Shown piece by piece: positions 13,415 to 46,999 of a stretch of DNA of 64,000 nt. The stretch is from Polaribacter atrinae (GTDB taxonomy: Bacteria > Bacteroidota > Bacteroidia > Flavobacteriales > Flavobacteriaceae), in contig NZ_CP150660.1 of NCBI RefSeq assembly GCF_038023995.1, positions 3,656,501-3,720,500 of the forward strand, in the 5' to 3' direction. Made by a program: the position numbers and the translations under genes. A model generated the notes under the pieces. The model saw only the letters and a list, made by a program, of their open reading frames with translations, was not told the DNA's origin and did no database searches. Position 1 is the first letter of the stretch; each line of letters begins with the position of its first letter.

Positions 13415-14572
13415 TTATCTTCCACCTAGTCTTAAAATATTTTCATAAAACTTATCTGCATTAGGGTCTGCAGGATCCATTTTTCCATAACCAATTTTGT
13501 ATTGTACAATTGCTTTACTAATTTGTTTACCGCTTTCGTAAAATTTACCAATATAATAGTCGCCTAAAGGAGAAGAAGGGTAGAGTTTTAAAATCATTTT
13601 ACCAAAAGGAAGTAACTGATCTCCATTTTCCTTTTCCATAATTATTTTTTCCACAGCAAAAATATCAGTTTCTCTTATTCCTAAACTACTACCAAAAAGG
13701 AATTCGATTTCTAAGTATTTATTTTCTAAATAAGCAATAACATCCGAAGGCGATAAATCTTTGATGTTTTTATCAAACTCTTCTTTAGAAATTGCAGAAT
13801 AAACCTGAAAAACTTGATTTAGTGCTCTAGGAATTGCTTCGCTAATAGCAGATATACTACTAGCGGTGTTGATGGTATCATTTATAATGTTAAAGTTTTT
13901 TAGCTCTAAAGACTTTAAACCTCCTTGTAATTCTCCGATTTTTGTTTGTTTGTCAGTAGAAAATGAAGTAGAATTGTTTATGTATAGGTAAAAAGTATTG
14001 TCTTCTTTCTCATATCTTGGTAAGTTGTACGCTTGTAATTGTTGTCCTATAAAGTCAGAGAAAATAGGATTTATACAGATGTATGAATTAATAAGAGGAA
14101 TTCTTTCGCCTAAAAAAAAGGAAACTAAGTTTGCCGAAGTACCTTCTCCAATAATAGAAATAAAAGGAGAAGTTTTATAGGTGCTTTCTATTTCAAAAAT
14201 AACTTCATCTTTTATAAATTGATAAAATTTCTTGTTATCTGTAGTTAATTCTCCGGTGGTTCTATTAAAATAGGTGTCTTTTTTTCTGGTTTTAGCCATT
14301 TCAATTCCTACTACAATTTGCTTTGGAGCTTTGTCTTTAGCTGCAAATAAAACAGAATTACCTACATACGTATCAAACAAAATCTCACTATCTAAAACAA
14401 CTGCCAAAGGATAGTTTTTATCCTCTTCAGGGTCATAACCTTCTGGTAAATATATTTTTATATCTCTTTTGTCATCTGCATAATCAGAGATAATTGTTTT
14501 TTTTATTATTTTTTGTGCATACCCGCTAAGGCAAATCAACATAAATATTAGGGTGAACGATTTCTTTATCAT
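13415..14572 (-). CDS. Secreted esterase-like alpha/beta-hydrolase fold protein, nucleophile apparently lost
   Basis: A 385-residue protein with a signal peptide (MIKKSFTLIFMLICLSGYAQ). The N-terminal two thirds resemble the esterase D/Fes family (PF00756): DIKIYLPEGYDPEEDKNYPLAVVLDSE, then FYQFIKDEVIFEIESTY. At the expected nucleophile elbow GxSxG the sequence is IIGEGTSA (residues 141-147), with Gly144 where Ser belongs; the next residues are Thr145 and Ser146. The C-terminal part has a TPR-like helical stretch. It is probably periplasmic and may be non-catalytic or may use a shifted serine. It is transcribed divergently from menB. Confidence 0.65.
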   Translation of the reverse strand: MIKKSFTLIFMLICLSGYAQKIIKKTIISDYADDKRDIKIYLPEGYDPEEDKNYPLAVVLDSEILFDTYVGNSVLFAAKDKAPKQIVVGIEMAKTRKKDTYFNRTTGELTTDNKKFYQFIKDEVIFEIESTYKTSPFISIIGEGTSANLVSFFLGERIPLINSYICINPIFSDFIGQQLQAYNLPRYEKEDNTFYLYINNSTSFSTDKQTKIGELQGGLKSLELKNFNIINDTINTASSISAISEAIPRALNQVFQVYSAISKEEFDKNIKDLSPSDVIAYLENKYLEIEFLFGSSLGIRETDIFAVEKIIMEKENGDQLLPFGKMILKLYPSSPLGDYYIGKFYESGKQISKAIVQYKIGYGKMDPADPNADKFYENILRLGGR

Positions 14573-14585
14573 AAATTTGAATCTT

Positions 14586-14593
14586 TATTTTTG
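14586..14593 (+). promoter_or_regulatory. -7 promoter element before menB
   Basis: TATTTTTG exactly matches TAnnTTTG, 47 bp upstream of the menB ATG. Confidence 0.45.
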
Positions 14594-14640
14594 TAACCAA
14601 TTTTTTTGTTCTTCTAAAAGAACGTCCAAAATACAAAATT

Positions 14641-41564: not shown

Positions 41565-43715
41565 ATGAAAAAAATACTGATTACATTTATTGTATTTATA
41601 ATGTCACTTCCGTCTGCAATGGCAAATGAAGGGATGTGGTTTTTAATGCATATAGAACGATTAAATCATCGTGATATGCAAAAAATGGGGTTACAATTAA
41701 CTCCCGAAGAAATTTACAGTGTTAACAATCAAAGTTTAAAAGATGCAATAGTGCAATTTAATGGAGGTTGTACAGCAAGTATCGTTTCAGAAAGTGGATT
41801 GGTGTTAACAAACCATCATTGTGGATACAATGCGATTGCAGAATTATCTACAGCAGAACAAAATCACTTAAAAAATGGTTTTTGGGCAGGTTCTAAAGAA
41901 GAGGAATTGAAGCCAGAAAGCTTATATGTTCGCTTTTTTGTAAGAATGGATGATGTTTCTAAACGTATTTTATCATTAGTAAATGATAAAATGAGTGAAA
42001 AAGAACGTGAGGCAATCATCAATAGAGAAATTGCTAAGATTGAAAAAGAAAATAACGAAGGTGGAAAATACACGGTTTCTGTTCGTTCTTTTTATGAAGG
42101 AAATGAATTTTACTACTTTGTTTATGAGGATTATAAAGATGTTCGTTTAGTAGGTACGCCTCCAGAAAATGTTGGTAAATATGGTGGAGATACAGATAAC
42201 TGGGAATGGCCAAGACATACTGGTGATTTTTCTTTATTTAGAGTTTATGCTGATGAAAATGGAGCACCAGCAGAATATTCAACAGCTAATGTGCCTTTAA
42301 AAGCAAAATATCATTTACCTGTTAATATTGATGGAGTAAAAGAAAATGATTTTGCAATGATTTTAGGATATCCTGGTAGAACTAACCGTTGGATGCCTGC
42401 ACAAGGAGTAGAGCAAAACGTAAAATACGCATATCCTGCTTGGGTAGAAGGTTCTAAGTTAAGTATGGATGTTATGAGAAAATACATGGATGCAGACGAG
42501 TCTGTGAATCTAATGTATGCATCTGCTTACGCCGGTATTGCCAATTATTGGAAAAATAGAGGTGGAATGATTACTGCTTTAACAGAACATAAAACTGTAG
42601 AAAAGAAGAGTAAAGTAGAGGCGAAGTTTGCCAAATGGGCTAAGAAAAAAGACAATAAAGAAGTCTACGGAAAAGTTATTGAGAACATCAATAATTATTA
42701 TAGTTTAACCAATGAAAAAACAAAACAAACCAACTACTTATTGGGGATGTTGCGTTCTAGTAAATTTGCTGTTTTATCATACAGAATTGGTGGCGCTTTA
42801 AAGCAATATACAGCTGCAAATGAAGCAGAGCGTGCAAATATGTTACCAAGATTACAAGCGCTTATAGAGAGTTCTTATAAAGATTTCTACTTGCCTTTAG
42901 AGGAAGAGGTTTTTGCAAAACAATTAGGTTTGTTAGCATCTAAATCTAATTATTCATTGCCAGAATTGGTAGCAGAAGTAGGTGGGAAAAACGATAATGA
43001 TTTTTCTGCGTATGTAAAAGCTATTTTTAAGTTGAGTATGTTTACTTCTAAAGAGGGAGTAGAAGCTTATTTACAATACCCAGATGAAGCGATCTTAAAT
43101 AGTGATCCTTTATTACAATTATCTAATCAGTTATTAGATAAATATAGAGAGAGTCCAGAGAGTTTAGTGCAACCAGAAAATGATTTTAAAGCATCATTTA
43201 GATTGTTAGTAAAAGGATTGCGTGAGTCAGGATTGAGTGATATTCAGTATCCTGATGCAAACTCTACATTAAGATTGTCTTACGGTAAAGTAAGAGCTTT
43301 GCCTGCGGATAAGAGAAACGATGCGAATGAAAATAATTATACTACTTTTCAGGGGATGATTAAAAAGTACAAACCAAACGATCCTGAGTTTGATTTAGAC
43401 CAAAGCATGTTAGATATTTACGAAAAGAAAGATTACGGACGTTACGCAAATGAGCGTGGTCAATTGCCTGTAAACTTTTTAACGGATAACGATATTACAG
43501 GTGGTAATTCTGGTTCTCCTGTTGTAAATGGAAAAGGTGAATTAATTGGTTTGGCTTTTGATGGAAACATTGAAGCAATGGCTGGTGATGTTATTTTCGA
43601 CTCAAACTTACAAAGAACTATTAATGTTGATGTTAGATATGTACTTTGGTTGATAGACAAATACTCAAACGCAAAACATATTGTAGACGAGTTGACTATT
43701 ATTAGTAAAAAATAG
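41565..43715 (+). CDS. S46 family dipeptidyl peptidase, DPP7-type by key residue
   Basis: A 716-residue secreted serine exopeptidase with a signal peptide (about residues 1-20). The catalytic triad is His85 (LTNHHCGY), Asp221 (PRHTGDFS) and Ser649 (GGNSGSPV), with a helical cap domain between. In DPP11, Arg673 lies 18 residues after the catalytic Ser and sets acidic P1 preference; here that position is Gly667, as in DPP7, so hydrophobic P1 preference is expected. It releases dipeptides from extracellular peptides. A strong terminator follows. Confidence 0.9.
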   Translation: MKKILITFIVFIMSLPSAMANEGMWFLMHIERLNHRDMQKMGLQLTPEEIYSVNNQSLKDAIVQFNGGCTASIVSESGLVLTNHHCGYNAIAELSTAEQNHLKNGFWAGSKEEELKPESLYVRFFVRMDDVSKRILSLVNDKMSEKEREAIINREIAKIEKENNEGGKYTVSVRSFYEGNEFYYFVYEDYKDVRLVGTPPENVGKYGGDTDNWEWPRHTGDFSLFRVYADENGAPAEYSTANVPLKAKYHLPVNIDGVKENDFAMILGYPGRTNRWMPAQGVEQNVKYAYPAWVEGSKLSMDVMRKYMDADESVNLMYASAYAGIANYWKNRGGMITALTEHKTVEKKSKVEAKFAKWAKKKDNKEVYGKVIENINNYYSLTNEKTKQTNYLLGMLRSSKFAVLSYRIGGALKQYTAANEAERANMLPRLQALIESSYKDFYLPLEEEVFAKQLGLLASKSNYSLPELVAEVGGKNDNDFSAYVKAIFKLSMFTSKEGVEAYLQYPDEAILNSDPLLQLSNQLLDKYRESPESLVQPENDFKASFRLLVKGLRESGLSDIQYPDANSTLRLSYGKVRALPADKRNDANENNYTTFQGMIKKYKPNDPEFDLDQSMLDIYEKKDYGRYANERGQLPVNFLTDNDITGGNSGSPVVNGKGELIGLAFDGNIEAMAGDVIFDSNLQRTINVDVRYVLWLIDKYSNAKHIVDELTIISKK

Positions 43716-43778: not shown

Positions 43779-43925
43779 TTTAGGAATGGAAGTTTGTGAG
43801 TGGGGTTTGCTTAGGTTTTTGTGTATTGAAAGTTGCGGTTTTGTGAACGAGGAATTTCCGAAGGAAATTCAGATGTAACAAAAGTGCACTAAACTTTGAT
43901 TAAGCACTAAATTACGCATTATTTT

Positions 43926-43943
43926 TATACGGTGTTGTAACAC
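43926..43943. repeat. Left boundary of cassette-like unit 1
   Basis: TATACGGTGTTGTAACAC. Its last ten bases GTTGTAACAC are the exact inverse of GTGTTACAAC at the right end of the unit (44586-44595). The coding stop lies 3 bp inside. A small hairpin GAATTTCC/GGAAATTC (43852-43870) lies further left. Confidence 0.65.
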
Positions 43944-43946
43944 GTT

Positions 43947-44582
43947 TTAATTCCATTTTTTTTCTTTAATTAACTTTCCTTTTTTGTTCCATTCTTTCCA
44001 TACTCCAATTGGAATTCCATTTATAAAATTTCTCTCACTTTTTTTCTGACCATTTTCGTACCATTCAGTCCAAATCCCACTTTCAATTCCATTTTGAAGT
44101 TTTCCTTTAAGTTTCAATTGACCGTTTTTATACTTTTTCTCAATTATTTCTATTTCTTTTACAGGTTCAATTTTCTTATTTATTTTTCTATAAAATTCAT
44201 TTTCACTAAAAAGATTTTCAGGATCTGTTAATATTAATTCCGAAATTGTAAGTTTTAGTATCTTATATTTCCTCCAACTCATTGTTAATATACTATCTTT
44301 CAAATTGAATTTTACTCTTGACTTATCACCAAATTGTATGATGTCCAGATTTCCTTTTTTACCAAATTGTAAAATAATATCGGCTTCTTTTTTTTCGGTT
44401 TCTTTACTTTTTTTTCCTGAATTAATTGGTTCAGTTATTGGAGTCAGTTGTTCTCTTTCTTTTTGTTGCTTTTTAGTTTCATATGATTCCCAAGTTCCGT
44501 GCAATTGTTCAACTTTCAATTGGGCATAAATATTTTTAAATGATATTGCAAGGATTAATAATAATAAAAGCTCTTTTTTCAT
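43947..44582 (-). CDS. Exported protein with C-terminal MORN-2 (YwqK-like) repeats
   Basis: A 211-residue protein with a signal peptide (MKKELLLLLILAISFKNIYA). Residues about 25-125 resemble a small beta-rich lipocalin-like domain (HGTWESYETKKQ, ADIILQFGKKGNLDIIQFGD). The C-terminus has two MORN-2 repeats: YKNGQLKLKGKLQNGIESGI then WTEWYENGQKKSERNF and GIPIGVWKEW. MORN-2 proteins are often named YwqK-family antitoxins, but no toxin is seen here. The gene fills unit 1: boundary repeats lie 3 bp beyond both its start and its stop, an unusually tight fit. Confidence 0.7.
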   Translation of the reverse strand: MKKELLLLLILAISFKNIYAQLKVEQLHGTWESYETKKQQKEREQLTPITEPINSGKKSKETEKKEADIILQFGKKGNLDIIQFGDKSRVKFNLKDSILTMSWRKYKILKLTISELILTDPENLFSENEFYRKINKKIEPVKEIEIIEKKYKNGQLKLKGKLQNGIESGIWTEWYENGQKKSERNFINGIPIGVWKEWNKKGKLIKEKKWN

Positions 44583-44585
44583 AAT

Positions 44586-44723
44586 GTGTTACAACGTTTA
44601 TGTGTATGAGTTGTGGCGTGTGCCGTCACGGACAATTCCAAACGATCAACTGCCTGTGGAAAATCCGCAGGATTTTCCAAGTAGGCACAGACACAGCCAT
44701 AACTTATACACGGTGTTGTGCGC
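44586..44723. repeat. Palindromic spacer joining cassette-like units 1 and 2
   Basis: It starts GTGTTACAAC (end of unit 1) and ends GTTGTGCGC (start of unit 2). Inside, GTGTATGAGTTGTGGC (44602-44617) pairs with GCCATAACTTATACAC (44696-44711) at 14 of 16 positions, and a central perfect hairpin TGGAAAATCC/GGATTTTCCA has a 3-nt loop (44657-44679). The stop codon of the unit 2 UPF0158 gene lies in the right arm. Confidence 0.7.
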
Positions 44724-45150
44724 TGGCTTTTCCTCGGTTTAATTGCGTTTCTACTATTTTTTCTAATTCGTTTTGTTTAAAGTCAAACCAGTTTTGTCTA
44801 TAATCTGAATTGTCAATTGTATTCTTAAAATTCTGAAATGGTTTTTTCCGTTCCAAGATAATTTCCAATTCTGCTTGAAATTGTTCGTTCGCAATTTGGG
44901 TAATAAAACGTTCCATAATCTTAAAAGACTCAAAACTCTCTAAAACCTCGATTTTTATAAAATCCGCTTTGTTTTTCTTTACTTTTTTCAATTCCATTCC
45001 AAAAGATTCACGAAATTCATCTTCATCAAACATTTCCCCAAAATTCGGAATTGTTATTAATTCGTTCGTTTTAGGATTGTAATAGCAGTCGTTTCCGCAA
45101 TCTAATTCCTGCGCAATTTCTTTAATTATATTTTGTCTTGAATTATCCAT
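44704..45150 (-). CDS. UPF0158 family protein
   Basis: A 148-residue cytoplasmic protein matching UPF0158 (PF03682) by its SFKIMERFITQIANEQFQ block and the terminal KKPFQNFKNTIDNSDYRQNW motif, then FDFKQNELEKIV. The function is unknown. The last seven residues (ASAQHRV) and the stop are encoded by the boundary repeat at 44704-44727, so the C-terminal tail is supplied by the cassette junction. It overlaps the DUF3024-like gene by 8 bp and follows it on the minus strand. Confidence 0.78.
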   Translation of the reverse strand: MDNSRQNIIKEIAQELDCGNDCYYNPKTNELITIPNFGEMFDEDEFRESFGMELKKVKKNKADFIKIEVLESFESFKIMERFITQIANEQFQAELEIILERKKPFQNFKNTIDNSDYRQNWFDFKQNELEKIVETQLNRGKASAQHRV

Positions 45151-45487
45151 AAAAACAACCGTGTTTATCTTCTTTGATAATATCGATAATGTTATCTAAA
45201 TGAGTTGATTTTGGAAATGGTTCATAAAGTTCCCATTTTCCGCTTGCACGCATCCAATATAAATTCCATTCTTGTCTTGATTTATAAAACCTGATTTTCG
45301 CAAATTCGATATGTTGAATTTCTTTTGGATTATTCCAAACAGGACGAATTTCATAAAGTACAATTACTTTTCCGTCATAAGAATATCCGAAATCAAGTTG
45401 TGCACGAATTTCTTGATTTTCCGGACGTAATGAACTCACGTAATTTTTTATAGTCGCTTCGTTTATATCAATTGTAATGTTTTTCAT
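45143..45487 (-). CDS. DUF3024-like protein
   Basis: A 114-residue protein resembling DUF3024 (PF11225): IRPVWNNPKEIQHIEFAKIR then FYKSRQEWNLYWMRASGKWELYEP. No signal or membrane segment. The function is unknown; members of the family are often found in mobile or integron-like contexts. It is the first gene of unit 2, with the right boundary repeat 24 bp upstream of its start, and overlaps the UPF0158 gene. Confidence 0.72.
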   Translation of the reverse strand: MKNITIDINEATIKNYVSSLRPENQEIRAQLDFGYSYDGKVIVLYEIRPVWNNPKEIQHIEFAKIRFYKSRQEWNLYWMRASGKWELYEPFPKSTHLDNIIDIIKEDKHGCFYG

Positions 45488-45510
45488 TAAGTCTCAATTT
45501 TTTTCAGCTT

Positions 45511-45532
45511 GCGCACAACTTCTTTGTATGAT
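45511..45532. repeat. Right boundary of cassette-like unit 2
   Basis: GCGCACAAC (45511-45519) is the exact inverse of GTTGTGCGC at 44715-44723 and is followed by TTCTTTGTATGA, which aligns with the GTTTATGTGTATGA after the unit 1 boundary at 44595. Confidence 0.6.
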
Positions 45533-45861
45533 AACTTTAATTACGTATATCCACTATTTAAAAAGGGATATACATAGTAATATCTTTAATTTTTTAGAAA
45601 AATTCTTTCATAGCAAATGGGAAGAATTTGGTGGTATAAATTTACAATAAATAACAAGTGTATGCTGTTTAAATGTTTAAACATTTGTTTCAACTTATTA
45701 ACAAAAGTTTATATGACAGCAGCTTGTGAAAAAACGAGTTTCAGAAATTTCTTTTAAGATTCTTTATTAGTAAGTATTACTTGTTTTAGAGTTTCAGAAA
45801 TCATTTTAAAAGTCAATAGGTATTAGAGAAGCATATCATAGGATAAATACTTTTTACATGC
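45533..45861. other. Non-coding spacer right of the cassette-like island
   Basis: No gene is recognised. It holds a hairpin GTATATCC/GGATATAC (45545-45573) and a perfect 16-bp palindrome AAATGTTTAAACATTT (45671-45686). Short direct echoes of GAGTTTCAGAAAT occur at about 45738 and 45791. Confidence 0.5.
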
Positions 45862-45922: not shown

Positions 45923-46855
45923 TTATTTTACATCCATTAATTCTACATCAAAAATAAGTGTTGCATCTGGTGGAATTACTCCTCCTGCACCAGCAGAACC
46001 ATACGCTAAATTAGATGGAATTACAAAACGAGCTTTGTCACCCACTTGTAATAATTGAATTCCTTCATCCCAACCAGAAATAACCTGACCTACACCAACA
46101 TTAAAATCGATTGGTTCTTTTCTCTTGTAAGAAGAATCGAATACAGTACCGTCTAATAATTGACCTTTATAGTGTACAGAAACTCCAGCTCCTTTTGTAG
46201 CTTTCTTTCCTGTTCCTTTTTGTAAAATTTGGTAACGTAAACCACTTGCAGTTTCATCATAACCAGCAGCAACTGTATCTAACAATGCTTTTTGTTTAGC
46301 TTTTTCTTCTGCTTCACGCTTTTCTCTAGATCCTTCAAAAGTTCTAAAAGCTTCAACAGCATTAAAAGCTTCTGCTTCTGCACCAACTTTAATAATTTCT
46401 ACAGTTGTTATTTCATCTCCTTGAGCAATTGCATCAACAACATCTTGTCCTTCTATTACAGAACCAAAAACAGTATGCTTACCGTCTAACCATGGAGTAG
46501 GTACGTGGGTAATATAAAACTGACTTCCGTTTGTTGCTGGACCAGAATTAGCCATCGCTAATTTTCCTGGAGCATCATGTTTTAAATCTGGGTGAAATTC
46601 ATCATCAAATTTATAACCTGGGTTACCAGTTCCTGTTCCTAGAGGACAACCACCTTGTACCATAAATTCTGGAATTACTCTGTGGAATTTTAATCCATCA
46701 TAATAAGGAGTTCCTTGCTCTTTTACAGCGTTTTCTAAATTTCCTTCTGTTAAAGCAACAAAATTACCAACAGTTCCAGGAGCTTTTTCGTGTTCTAATT
46801 GTACTAAAATCTCACCTTTTGGAGTGGTGAATTTTGCATAAATTCCGTTATTCAT
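45923..46855 (-). CDS. Dual peptidyl-prolyl isomerase: cyclophilin-FKBP fusion
   Basis: A 310-residue cytoplasmic protein joining two unrelated prolyl isomerase folds. The cyclophilin domain spans about residues 1-155, with FHRVIPEFMVQGG, ATNGSQFYIT and LDGKHTVFG. An alpha-helical acidic/basic linker (about 165-205) leads to an FKBP domain (about 215-310), with VSVHYKGQLLDGTVFDSSY and IPSNLAYGSAGAGGVIPPDA. I place the start at 46855; 18 codons upstream are open but translate the TCGAGCGCAGTCGA repeat. Dual-family immunophilins are known from a few flavobacteria and protists. Confidence 0.92.
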   Translation of the reverse strand: MNNGIYAKFTTPKGEILVQLEHEKAPGTVGNFVALTEGNLENAVKEQGTPYYDGLKFHRVIPEFMVQGGCPLGTGTGNPGYKFDDEFHPDLKHDAPGKLAMANSGPATNGSQFYITHVPTPWLDGKHTVFGSVIEGQDVVDAIAQGDEITTVEIIKVGAEAEAFNAVEAFRTFEGSREKREAEEKAKQKALLDTVAAGYDETASGLRYQILQKGTGKKATKGAGVSVHYKGQLLDGTVFDSSYKRKEPIDFNVGVGQVISGWDEGIQLLQVGDKARFVIPSNLAYGSAGAGGVIPPDATLIFDVELMDVK

Positions 46856-46881
46856 AATCTTTAATTTACTTTTTTGTTTTC

Positions 46882-46999
46882 TCGAGCGCAGTCGAGAGGT
46901 TTTATTCATTTATTAGTCCTCGACTGCGCTCGAACTGACATTAATTCTAATCTTGAAATGCATCAAGATTTTATTGTTATGATTCTGAAACAAGTTCAG
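46882..46999. repeat. Cluster of palindromic repeats between PPIase and barrel-like gene
   Basis: Two inverted copies of the 14-bp core lie at 46882-46895 (TCGAGCGCAGTCGA) and 46920-46933 (TCGACTGCGCTCGA). They are followed by a hairpin ATCTTGA/TCAAGAT (46950-46969) and a CTGAAACAAGTTCAG palindrome (46985-46999). Together they fill the intergenic gap. Confidence 0.7.

Follow-up and report, generated by a model that had tools for sequence, protein, structure and literature searches.

A two-cassette locus of Polaribacter atrinae and its place in a probable integron-like gene-capture system of the Flavobacteriaceae

Two gene units between the S46 peptidase and isomerase loci

The window is a stretch of 64,000 nucleotides of the Polaribacter atrinae genome (contig NZ_CP150660.1, positions 3,656,501–3,720,500). 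On its minus strand two units are found between the gene for an S46 peptidase (41565–43715) and that for a peptidyl-prolyl isomerase (45923–46909). Their features are shown in Table 1. A preliminary description, made from the letters of the window, had proposed border repeats that match within a unit and differ between units, and this is confirmed at the positions given: on the plus strand, GTTGTAACAC (43934–43943) pairs with GTGTTACAAC (44586–44595), and GTTGTGCGC (44715–44723) with GCGCACAAC (45511–45519). The layout of the units stands, with the reading direction corrected, i.e. genes and units are both on the minus strand. The self-complementary tags also stand, with a different extent: GTT plus seven nucleotides, then a position that is almost never Watson-Crick, then further pairs. 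In cassette B, GTT and all seven nucleotides are matched, position 8 is A.C on the top strand and two pairs lie beyond; in cassette A, GTT and six nucleotides are matched, position 7 is a mismatch, position 8 is again A.C (top strand), and three more pairs follow.

Table 1. Features of the two cassettes in the window. A slash marks the border before GTT.
Feature	Position	Strand	Description
Host flank of insertion point	45520..45560	-	..AAAGTTATCATACAAAGAA/GTT; near-identical in sister genome G049, which has different cassettes
Cassette A	44596..45519	-	opens GTTGTGCGC (45511-45519); DUF3024 and UPF0158-like genes; closes GCGCACAAC (44715-44723), then attC-like site
Opening tag, cassette A	45509..45519	-	GTT and GTGCGC paired with closing tag; then GCT paired
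DUF3024 gene, 114 aa	45143..45487	-	Pfam PF11225, E 4.7e-32
UPF0158-like gene, 148 aa	44704..45150	-	Pfam PF03682, E 4.1e-7
attC-like site between cassettes, complete	44593..44717	-	model R1, 78.4 bits, E 3.3e-11
Cassette B	43814..44595	-	opens GTTGTAACAC (44586-44595); MORN_2-type gene; closes GTGTTACAAC (43934-43943), then attC-like site; end approximate, near 43813/43814
MORN_2-type gene, 211 aa	43947..44582	-	Pfam PF07661, E 2.5e-6, 27.5 bits (below cut-off of 29.6)
Terminal attC-like site, stem decayed	43812..43936	-	model R1, 65.0 bits, E 4.3e-9; several non-standard pairs

The outer flanks noted earlier as shared by both units form the opposite ends of a single site of 125 nt. A covariance model (termed R1), for which 26 diverse copies from other parts of the genome were used, matches this site twice in the window. 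The site between the cassettes has its bottom strand on the plus strand of the window; it shows the full stem of the model with zero non-standard pairs and G.T at both fixed positions (see below), and its calculated folding energy (DNA parameters) is −27.8 kcal/mol for the bottom strand and −24.4 kcal/mol for the top strand. The terminal site adjoins host DNA (..TTTGCTTA). The cargo had been named as MORN-2, DUF3024-like and UPF0158, in agreement with the Pfam matches, that to PF07661 being below cut-off. The MORN_2-type gene fits its unit as described, with a gap of 3 bp to the tag on either side. It had also been remarked that the window has no integrase, and the 18 matches to the integron-integrase profile in the genome all lie outside it.

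The locus was compared in sister genomes. In G049 the S46 flank is 95% identical and the same host sequences are present on both sides (..TTATCATATATAGAA/GTT, where the flank matching 45520–45560 begins at position 2521 of locus L156, and TTTGCTTA), with other cassettes between them; attC-like sites are at positions 747–873 and 1731–1855 of L156, with one more closer to the isomerase gene. In G052 the isomerase and S46 genes are 9.5 kb apart and three sites are present. The locus is not fixed, and because G049 and G052 carry different contents it is a place of cassette exchange. An empty locus was not found: G049 and G052 are occupied, and G054 has other genes downstream of the isomerase gene. 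A side observation concerns a 6.7-kb stretch between two attC-like sites in G052 (L157 3631–10302), which has four co-directed genes. Two of these we take to be GTPase-like, and another to have a nucleoside-phosphorylase-like end; the stretch is possibly a defence system that has moved as a cassette.

Arrays, private tags and the 125-nt hairpin site

A search for border pairs in the genome and its relatives, suggested with the first description, shows that the two units are not isolated. A 14-base piece of the site, with up to 2 mismatches, is found 83 times in forward and 32 times in reverse orientation in the 4,010,129-bp genome, and the reversed pattern 8 and 8 times. The R1 model matches at least 150 sites in the genome (a floor, as 150 candidates were scored and all matched), and further sites are found across the genus and family. 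Of the sites in this genome, 112 are in a big array on the plus strand at about 1.063–1.234 Mb (~170 kb) and 25 in a second array on the minus strand at about 3.811–3.853 Mb. The remainder are in small clusters, the pair in the window being one.

The arrays have a regular composition. The median unit length is 781 bp (101 units of 3.5 kb or less); 16 of these 101 units have no open reading frame of 40 aa, and in 83 of the 85 that do the longest one is on the array strand, with a median gap of 13 bp from stop codon to AAC. Seventy-three cassette open reading frames of the big array match 52 Pfam families (E 0.001). Those repeated among the 25 families listed are UPF0158 (three times) and DUF6933, HTH_3 and DUF6985 (twice each). 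Some cassette open reading frames match defence-related models, e.g. ThsB, methyltransferases, DpdB and PD-Lambda-2.

Duplicated cassettes show where the units begin and end. In 45 homologous cassette pairs the identity drops at GTT on the 3′ side. Ten pairs (nine identical, one 99.8%) were inspected base by base, out of eleven at 99.8% or more, the eleventh (61/67) being implied by 13/61 and 13/67. All ten diverge 0–3 bases past the downstream GTT. Upstream, the point of divergence is no more than 11 bases from GTT in eight pairs; the other two have 19 and 25 bases in common, these stretches being the conserved site end. Cassettes 10, 11, 12 and 13 of the big array reappear as 66, 68, 65 and 67, and cassette A of the window displays 78% identity over 865 bp to three big-array copies, from GTT onward. 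The unit structure, its boundaries and the re-ordering of cassettes are thus features of the sequences themselves.

The arrays could also be proposed to have arisen without a site-specific enzyme, by ordinary homologous recombination and by duplication between the repeats, given that the sites resemble each other and that duplicates exist. Exchange within a 125-nt repeat, however, would not set the breakpoints at GTT or keep the tags matched, and the junctions are sharp, with the same junction type present in a phage and in a sister species. This origin is extremely improbable.

Matching of the tags was examined in 193 units between consecutive sites, 105 from the big array of this genome (112 sites, with 4 odd ones and those lacking an end dropped) and 88 from other loci of the genus, where sites of ~185 nt were left out; units of 150–7000 bp were counted. 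The 7 nt after GTT served as the tag, and the 7 nt that precede AAC in the following site were reverse-complemented for comparison with it. All seven positions agree in 112 units and six of seven in 53, for a total of 165 of 193. The complementarity of variable bases within a unit, which the preliminary description had put forward for checking elsewhere, is therefore general. It is not due to chance, since the same agreement is seen in only 15 of 193 units in a same-site control and in a mean of 9.3 (maximum 24) in 2000 rounds of permutation. An earlier parse of the big array had given 67 pairs at 7/7 and 41 at 6/7 out of 138 (same-site control 2 and 7), some of the 138 deriving from mis-parsed sites. 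The rule is broken in 28 of the 193 units. In the 165 that keep it, pairing is seen at positions 1–6 in 97–100%, at position 7 in 76% and at positions 9–10 in 88–90%, and position 8 has G.T on the bottom strand in 86% and a Watson-Crick pair in 1%. With the window locus also not fixed in sister genomes, the proposal of a cassette system with self-complementary tags is supported.

The 125-nt site itself has a conserved fold. RNAalifold, applied to the bottom strands of 26 sites, gives a 17-pair stem, in 12 pairs of which one or more of the sequences have both partners replaced, a covariation that is evident in the alignment, and a central spacer predicted to be unpaired. G.T occupies two inner stem positions in 25 and 24 of the 26 sites, and T.G is found beside the spacer in 22; on the top strand the wobble positions read as A.C mismatches. 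An extrahelical base is not present in the consensus of the 26 sites, where the lone skipped column is occupied in a single row. Folding was calculated for 116 of 139 parsed sites, those of length 120–130. The bottom strand is predicted to be the more stable in 116/116 (mean −16.8 vs −13.7 kcal/mol, DNA parameters), while in a control with random pieces of units this is so in 36 of 131. No Rfam family matched one of ten array stretches (L022) at gathering thresholds. The big array also has a second, longer class of sites with similar ends (181–189 nt, about 188).

Many of these properties are those of integrons (IntI/attI/attC), including sedentary chromosomal ones as in Vibrio cholerae: long arrays of short cassettes, one hairpin site per cassette, a bottom strand that folds better, and an AAC/GTT core with G after AAC. 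Unlike attC, the flavobacterial sites have variable private tags past GTT in place of the R box GTTRRRY (GTTRRRY in 18 of 215 sites, RYYYAAC in 21 of 215), and they display fixed G.T wobbles with a consensus that lacks an extrahelical base. In canonical attC the choice of strand is mainly set by the extrahelical base, according to an excerpt of PMC2727003. The two cassettes of the window resemble CALIN elements (attC clusters without an integrase) in having no nearby recombinase, and differ from these in two respects: the canonical R-box consensus is missing from most flavobacterial sites, and the recombinase that goes with them is of a different type.

The linked recombinase and the attI-like motif

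The array at 3.811–3.853 Mb starts 96 bp after the stop codon of a gene for a 374-aa tyrosine recombinase (L035 9044–10168), and its first cassette opens TATATAAACAA/GTTGGCAACA. Twenty-two recombinase loci of the genus were examined (20 plus L035 and L036). In 16 of the 22 an attC-like site is found within 3 kb downstream of the recombinase, and in L101 the first site is at 6.5 kb. Five loci have no site: two are at contig ends, two have broken or partial genes and one is an orphan. The linkage of gene and array is thus seen directly. A motif, ATATAA(A)C-N2/GTT, is found within about 170 bp past the recombinase stop codon in 18 of 22 loci; this attI-like motif is the putative insertion point. 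As in integrons, the insertion point adjoins a tyrosine recombinase gene, the cassettes are re-ordered, and clusters without an integrase are found elsewhere in the genome.

The big array has an attI-like start (L020 11660–11702) and no intact neighboring gene for a recombinase of the XerA-like family. A recombinase of the matching subtype, an orphan, is at 2.777 Mb (L036 12080–13303), 1.7 Mb away, and no attC-like site was found near it. The array and its matching recombinase seem to have been separated from each other. Just upstream of the big array (L020 8596–11268), two broken tyrosine-recombinase genes and, by eye, a tRNA-end look-alike were seen, perhaps the remnant of an unrelated integrated element.

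The best profile match of the recombinase is NF040815 (XerA-like), with 201.8 and 214.3 bits, below the cut-off of 220. The spacing from the GLR motif to HxLRH is 85 residues in 19/19 recombinases, vs 129 in 11 of 12 IntI and 92 in 8 of 9 Xer proteins (those measurable); the recombinase therefore lacks the IntI-specific catalytic insertion. It also differs from IntI in having an extra N-terminal domain of ~75 residues, for which only weak HARP/XPB-like matches were obtained, tied with the translation factor aIF1. In a tree the 19 recombinases, 12 IntI and 9 Xer proteins form separate groups, the recombinase group with support of only 81/44 and a long-branch warning. The protein is distinguished from XerA and archaeal Xer (NF040815; PDB 4a8e, 5hxy) by its cassette-array role, by the N-terminal domain and by its score below the family cut-off. 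As a separate observation, several Acinetobacter plasmids encode a recombinase 57.5% identical to residues 161–373 of the Polaribacter one.

Two other enzymes may be considered in light of these data. That the cassettes are ordinary attC cassettes left by a canonical IntI, now absent or acting from elsewhere, with the XerA-like linkage incidental, is unlikely. The bottom-strand hairpin and the cassette layout do match, AACG follows the R′ box as it is said to do in most attC in the part of the literature consulted, and one of the attC predicted in the Polaribacter phage P12002L was recombined by class 1 IntI1, as given in an excerpt of PMC9892861. On the other hand, TIGR02249 (IntI) has 18 matches in this genome and none exceeds its cut-off of 265 bits, the two closest proteins reaching 189.6 and 205; an IntI acting in trans was rejected on the same count. 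In a sample of 296 genomes of the phylum 84 have an IntI over cut-off, and among the 89 matching genomes the lone Flavobacteriaceae row is below it. The rarity of canonical R boxes, the consensus stem without an extrahelical base, and the link of the arrays to the XerA-like recombinase in 16 of 22 loci also argue against this explanation.

The second candidate is the housekeeping pair XerC/XerD, acting as on pdif sites. The pdif modules of Acinetobacter plasmids are moved by XerC/XerD, and dif-like sites are 28 bp. Like these, the units described here place genes as modules between short recombination sites; their borders are tyrosine-recombinase-like, and XerC/D-like genes are present in this genome. 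The borders differ, however, in length and form, being 125-nt hairpins with a 3-nt shared core, and it is a different recombinase family that is linked to the arrays, with XerC/D separate from it in the tree. Movement by XerC/XerD is very improbable.

The neighborhood of the XerA-like recombinase was inspected as well. In L035 (9044–15207; genome positions 3,854,044–3,860,207) an S24-peptidase repressor gene is divergent from genes for DinB-type and DnaE-type polymerases, with the recombinase gene last. This is an apparent SOS-type operon. The same type of operon is present in L101 of G016, with a recombinase of the other subtype. SOS control as a general rule was rejected, the operon adjoining the recombinase in only these 2 of 22 loci. 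A dinB homologue is found in 155 of 299 family genomes, and by eye no further dinB-recombinase neighbors are present among the positions listed in the family survey, the nearest pair being about 12 kb apart (G246). The link to an SOS operon is thus local only.

Proposed mechanism, distribution and meaning

The locus in the window goes beyond the first description: it is the flavobacterial equivalent of integron cassettes. Its sites are attC-like hairpins, and an attI-like site and a recombinase are present at another place in the genome. The window very probably holds a side branch, two cassettes long, of an integron-like system for gene capture in the Flavobacteriaceae, with a XerA-like recombinase acting at GTT. 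To judge from its sequences, the system would work like an integron but lacks the defining features of IntI and attC that were examined.

The following steps are proposed. A cassette consists of its gene or genes and a single attC-like site of 125 nt. Once a cassette is excised as a circle, its own two tags, opening and closing, would flank that site. The bottom strand of this single-stranded DNA may fold into a private tag stem (GTT plus seven, the fixed G.T wobble and a few more pairs), an unpaired spacer and the 17-bp L stem with its G.T wobbles. The recombinase would bind on both sides of the spacer, to the R stem and to the L stem, and at GTT a single strand would be exchanged with a double-stranded attI. 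The target would be the attI-like site just past the gene of the recombinase itself, or secondary sites such as ..AGAA/GTT in the window. The fixed G.T wobbles could take the place of the extrahelical base in the choice of strand. As the tags are private, two unrelated tags meet at a site within an array and its R stem is poor, whereas that of the excised circle is complete. Insertion would thereby be favored relative to excision, which could account for arrays of such length.

A more far-reaching and tentative possibility would make the system a second integron that was built independently, with a XerA-like recombinase, a junction-binding HARP/XPB-like domain in place of the IntI insertion, a strand read by wobbles and a tag valve. 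The valve would be one-way: the fully paired tag stem of the circle would insert well, the mixed-tag site in the array would be crippled for excision, and arrays would be ratcheted up to a hundred or more cassettes.

The distribution is wide. Sites are found in all 24 genus members sampled and in 3 of 15 genomes from other families of the order (up to 91 candidate sites scored per genome; up to 11 in the family survey). Among 299 Flavobacteriaceae genomes, sites are present in 199 of 236 genera and the recombinase (threshold E 1e-50) in 150 of 236. Both are found in 175 genomes, the recombinase only in 14, sites only in 67 and neither in 43 (Fisher p 4.5e-11; as the genomes are related, this is not a count of independent events). 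The 67 genomes with sites only are as expected of integrase-less clusters, yet leave room for another enzyme.

Viral genomes carry such sites as well. Phage P12002L (virulent) has one R1 site, at 14.5 kb (14503–14624), in a unit with matching tags (L103 14503–15197), and seven viral contigs have sites. In an excerpt of PMC9892861, attC sites are predicted in this phage, IntI1 is reported to have recombined one of them, and the predicted cluster is said to hold methyltransferase genes. Methyltransferase genes are annotated in the phage at 29–32 and 38 kb; the site used with IntI1 was therefore probably another than that at 14.5 kb.

Several plasmids were also read. The recombinase and TATAAACAA/GTT are present on a Chryseobacterium plasmid (another family; L167 7971–16666), together with four attC-like sites, which are weaker; one gene between sites is MORN-like by eye. 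A mobilizable Flagellimonas plasmid, which also has erm(F) and a xerA-type recombinase gene, has a dihydrofolate-reductase-family gene between two attC-like sites, the second weak (L168 5920–6753). A 131-kb plasmid of Tenacibaculum finnmarkense has four attC-like sites in the stretch read (L166 9755–18766).

No account of a flavobacterial cassette system was found in the open-licence papers searched. For the Bacteroidota, an excerpt of a 2022 IntegronFinder survey lists integrases that lack cassettes and a single complete integron, that of Salinibacter, with integrase-less clusters uncounted (PMC9024848), and a passage of a review includes the phylum among those with integrons (PMC8618304).

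The system offers a natural comparison for what an integron needs, as it does without, or has substitutes for, the additional domain, the extrahelical bases and the conserved R boxes. Whether wobble pairs choose the strand, and whether mismatched tags make arrays grow, can be tested directly. Such sites reach phage, viral contigs and plasmids too. For the Flavobacteriaceae, a family-scale gene-capture system is added, found in 242 of 299 genomes by site and in 189 by recombinase.
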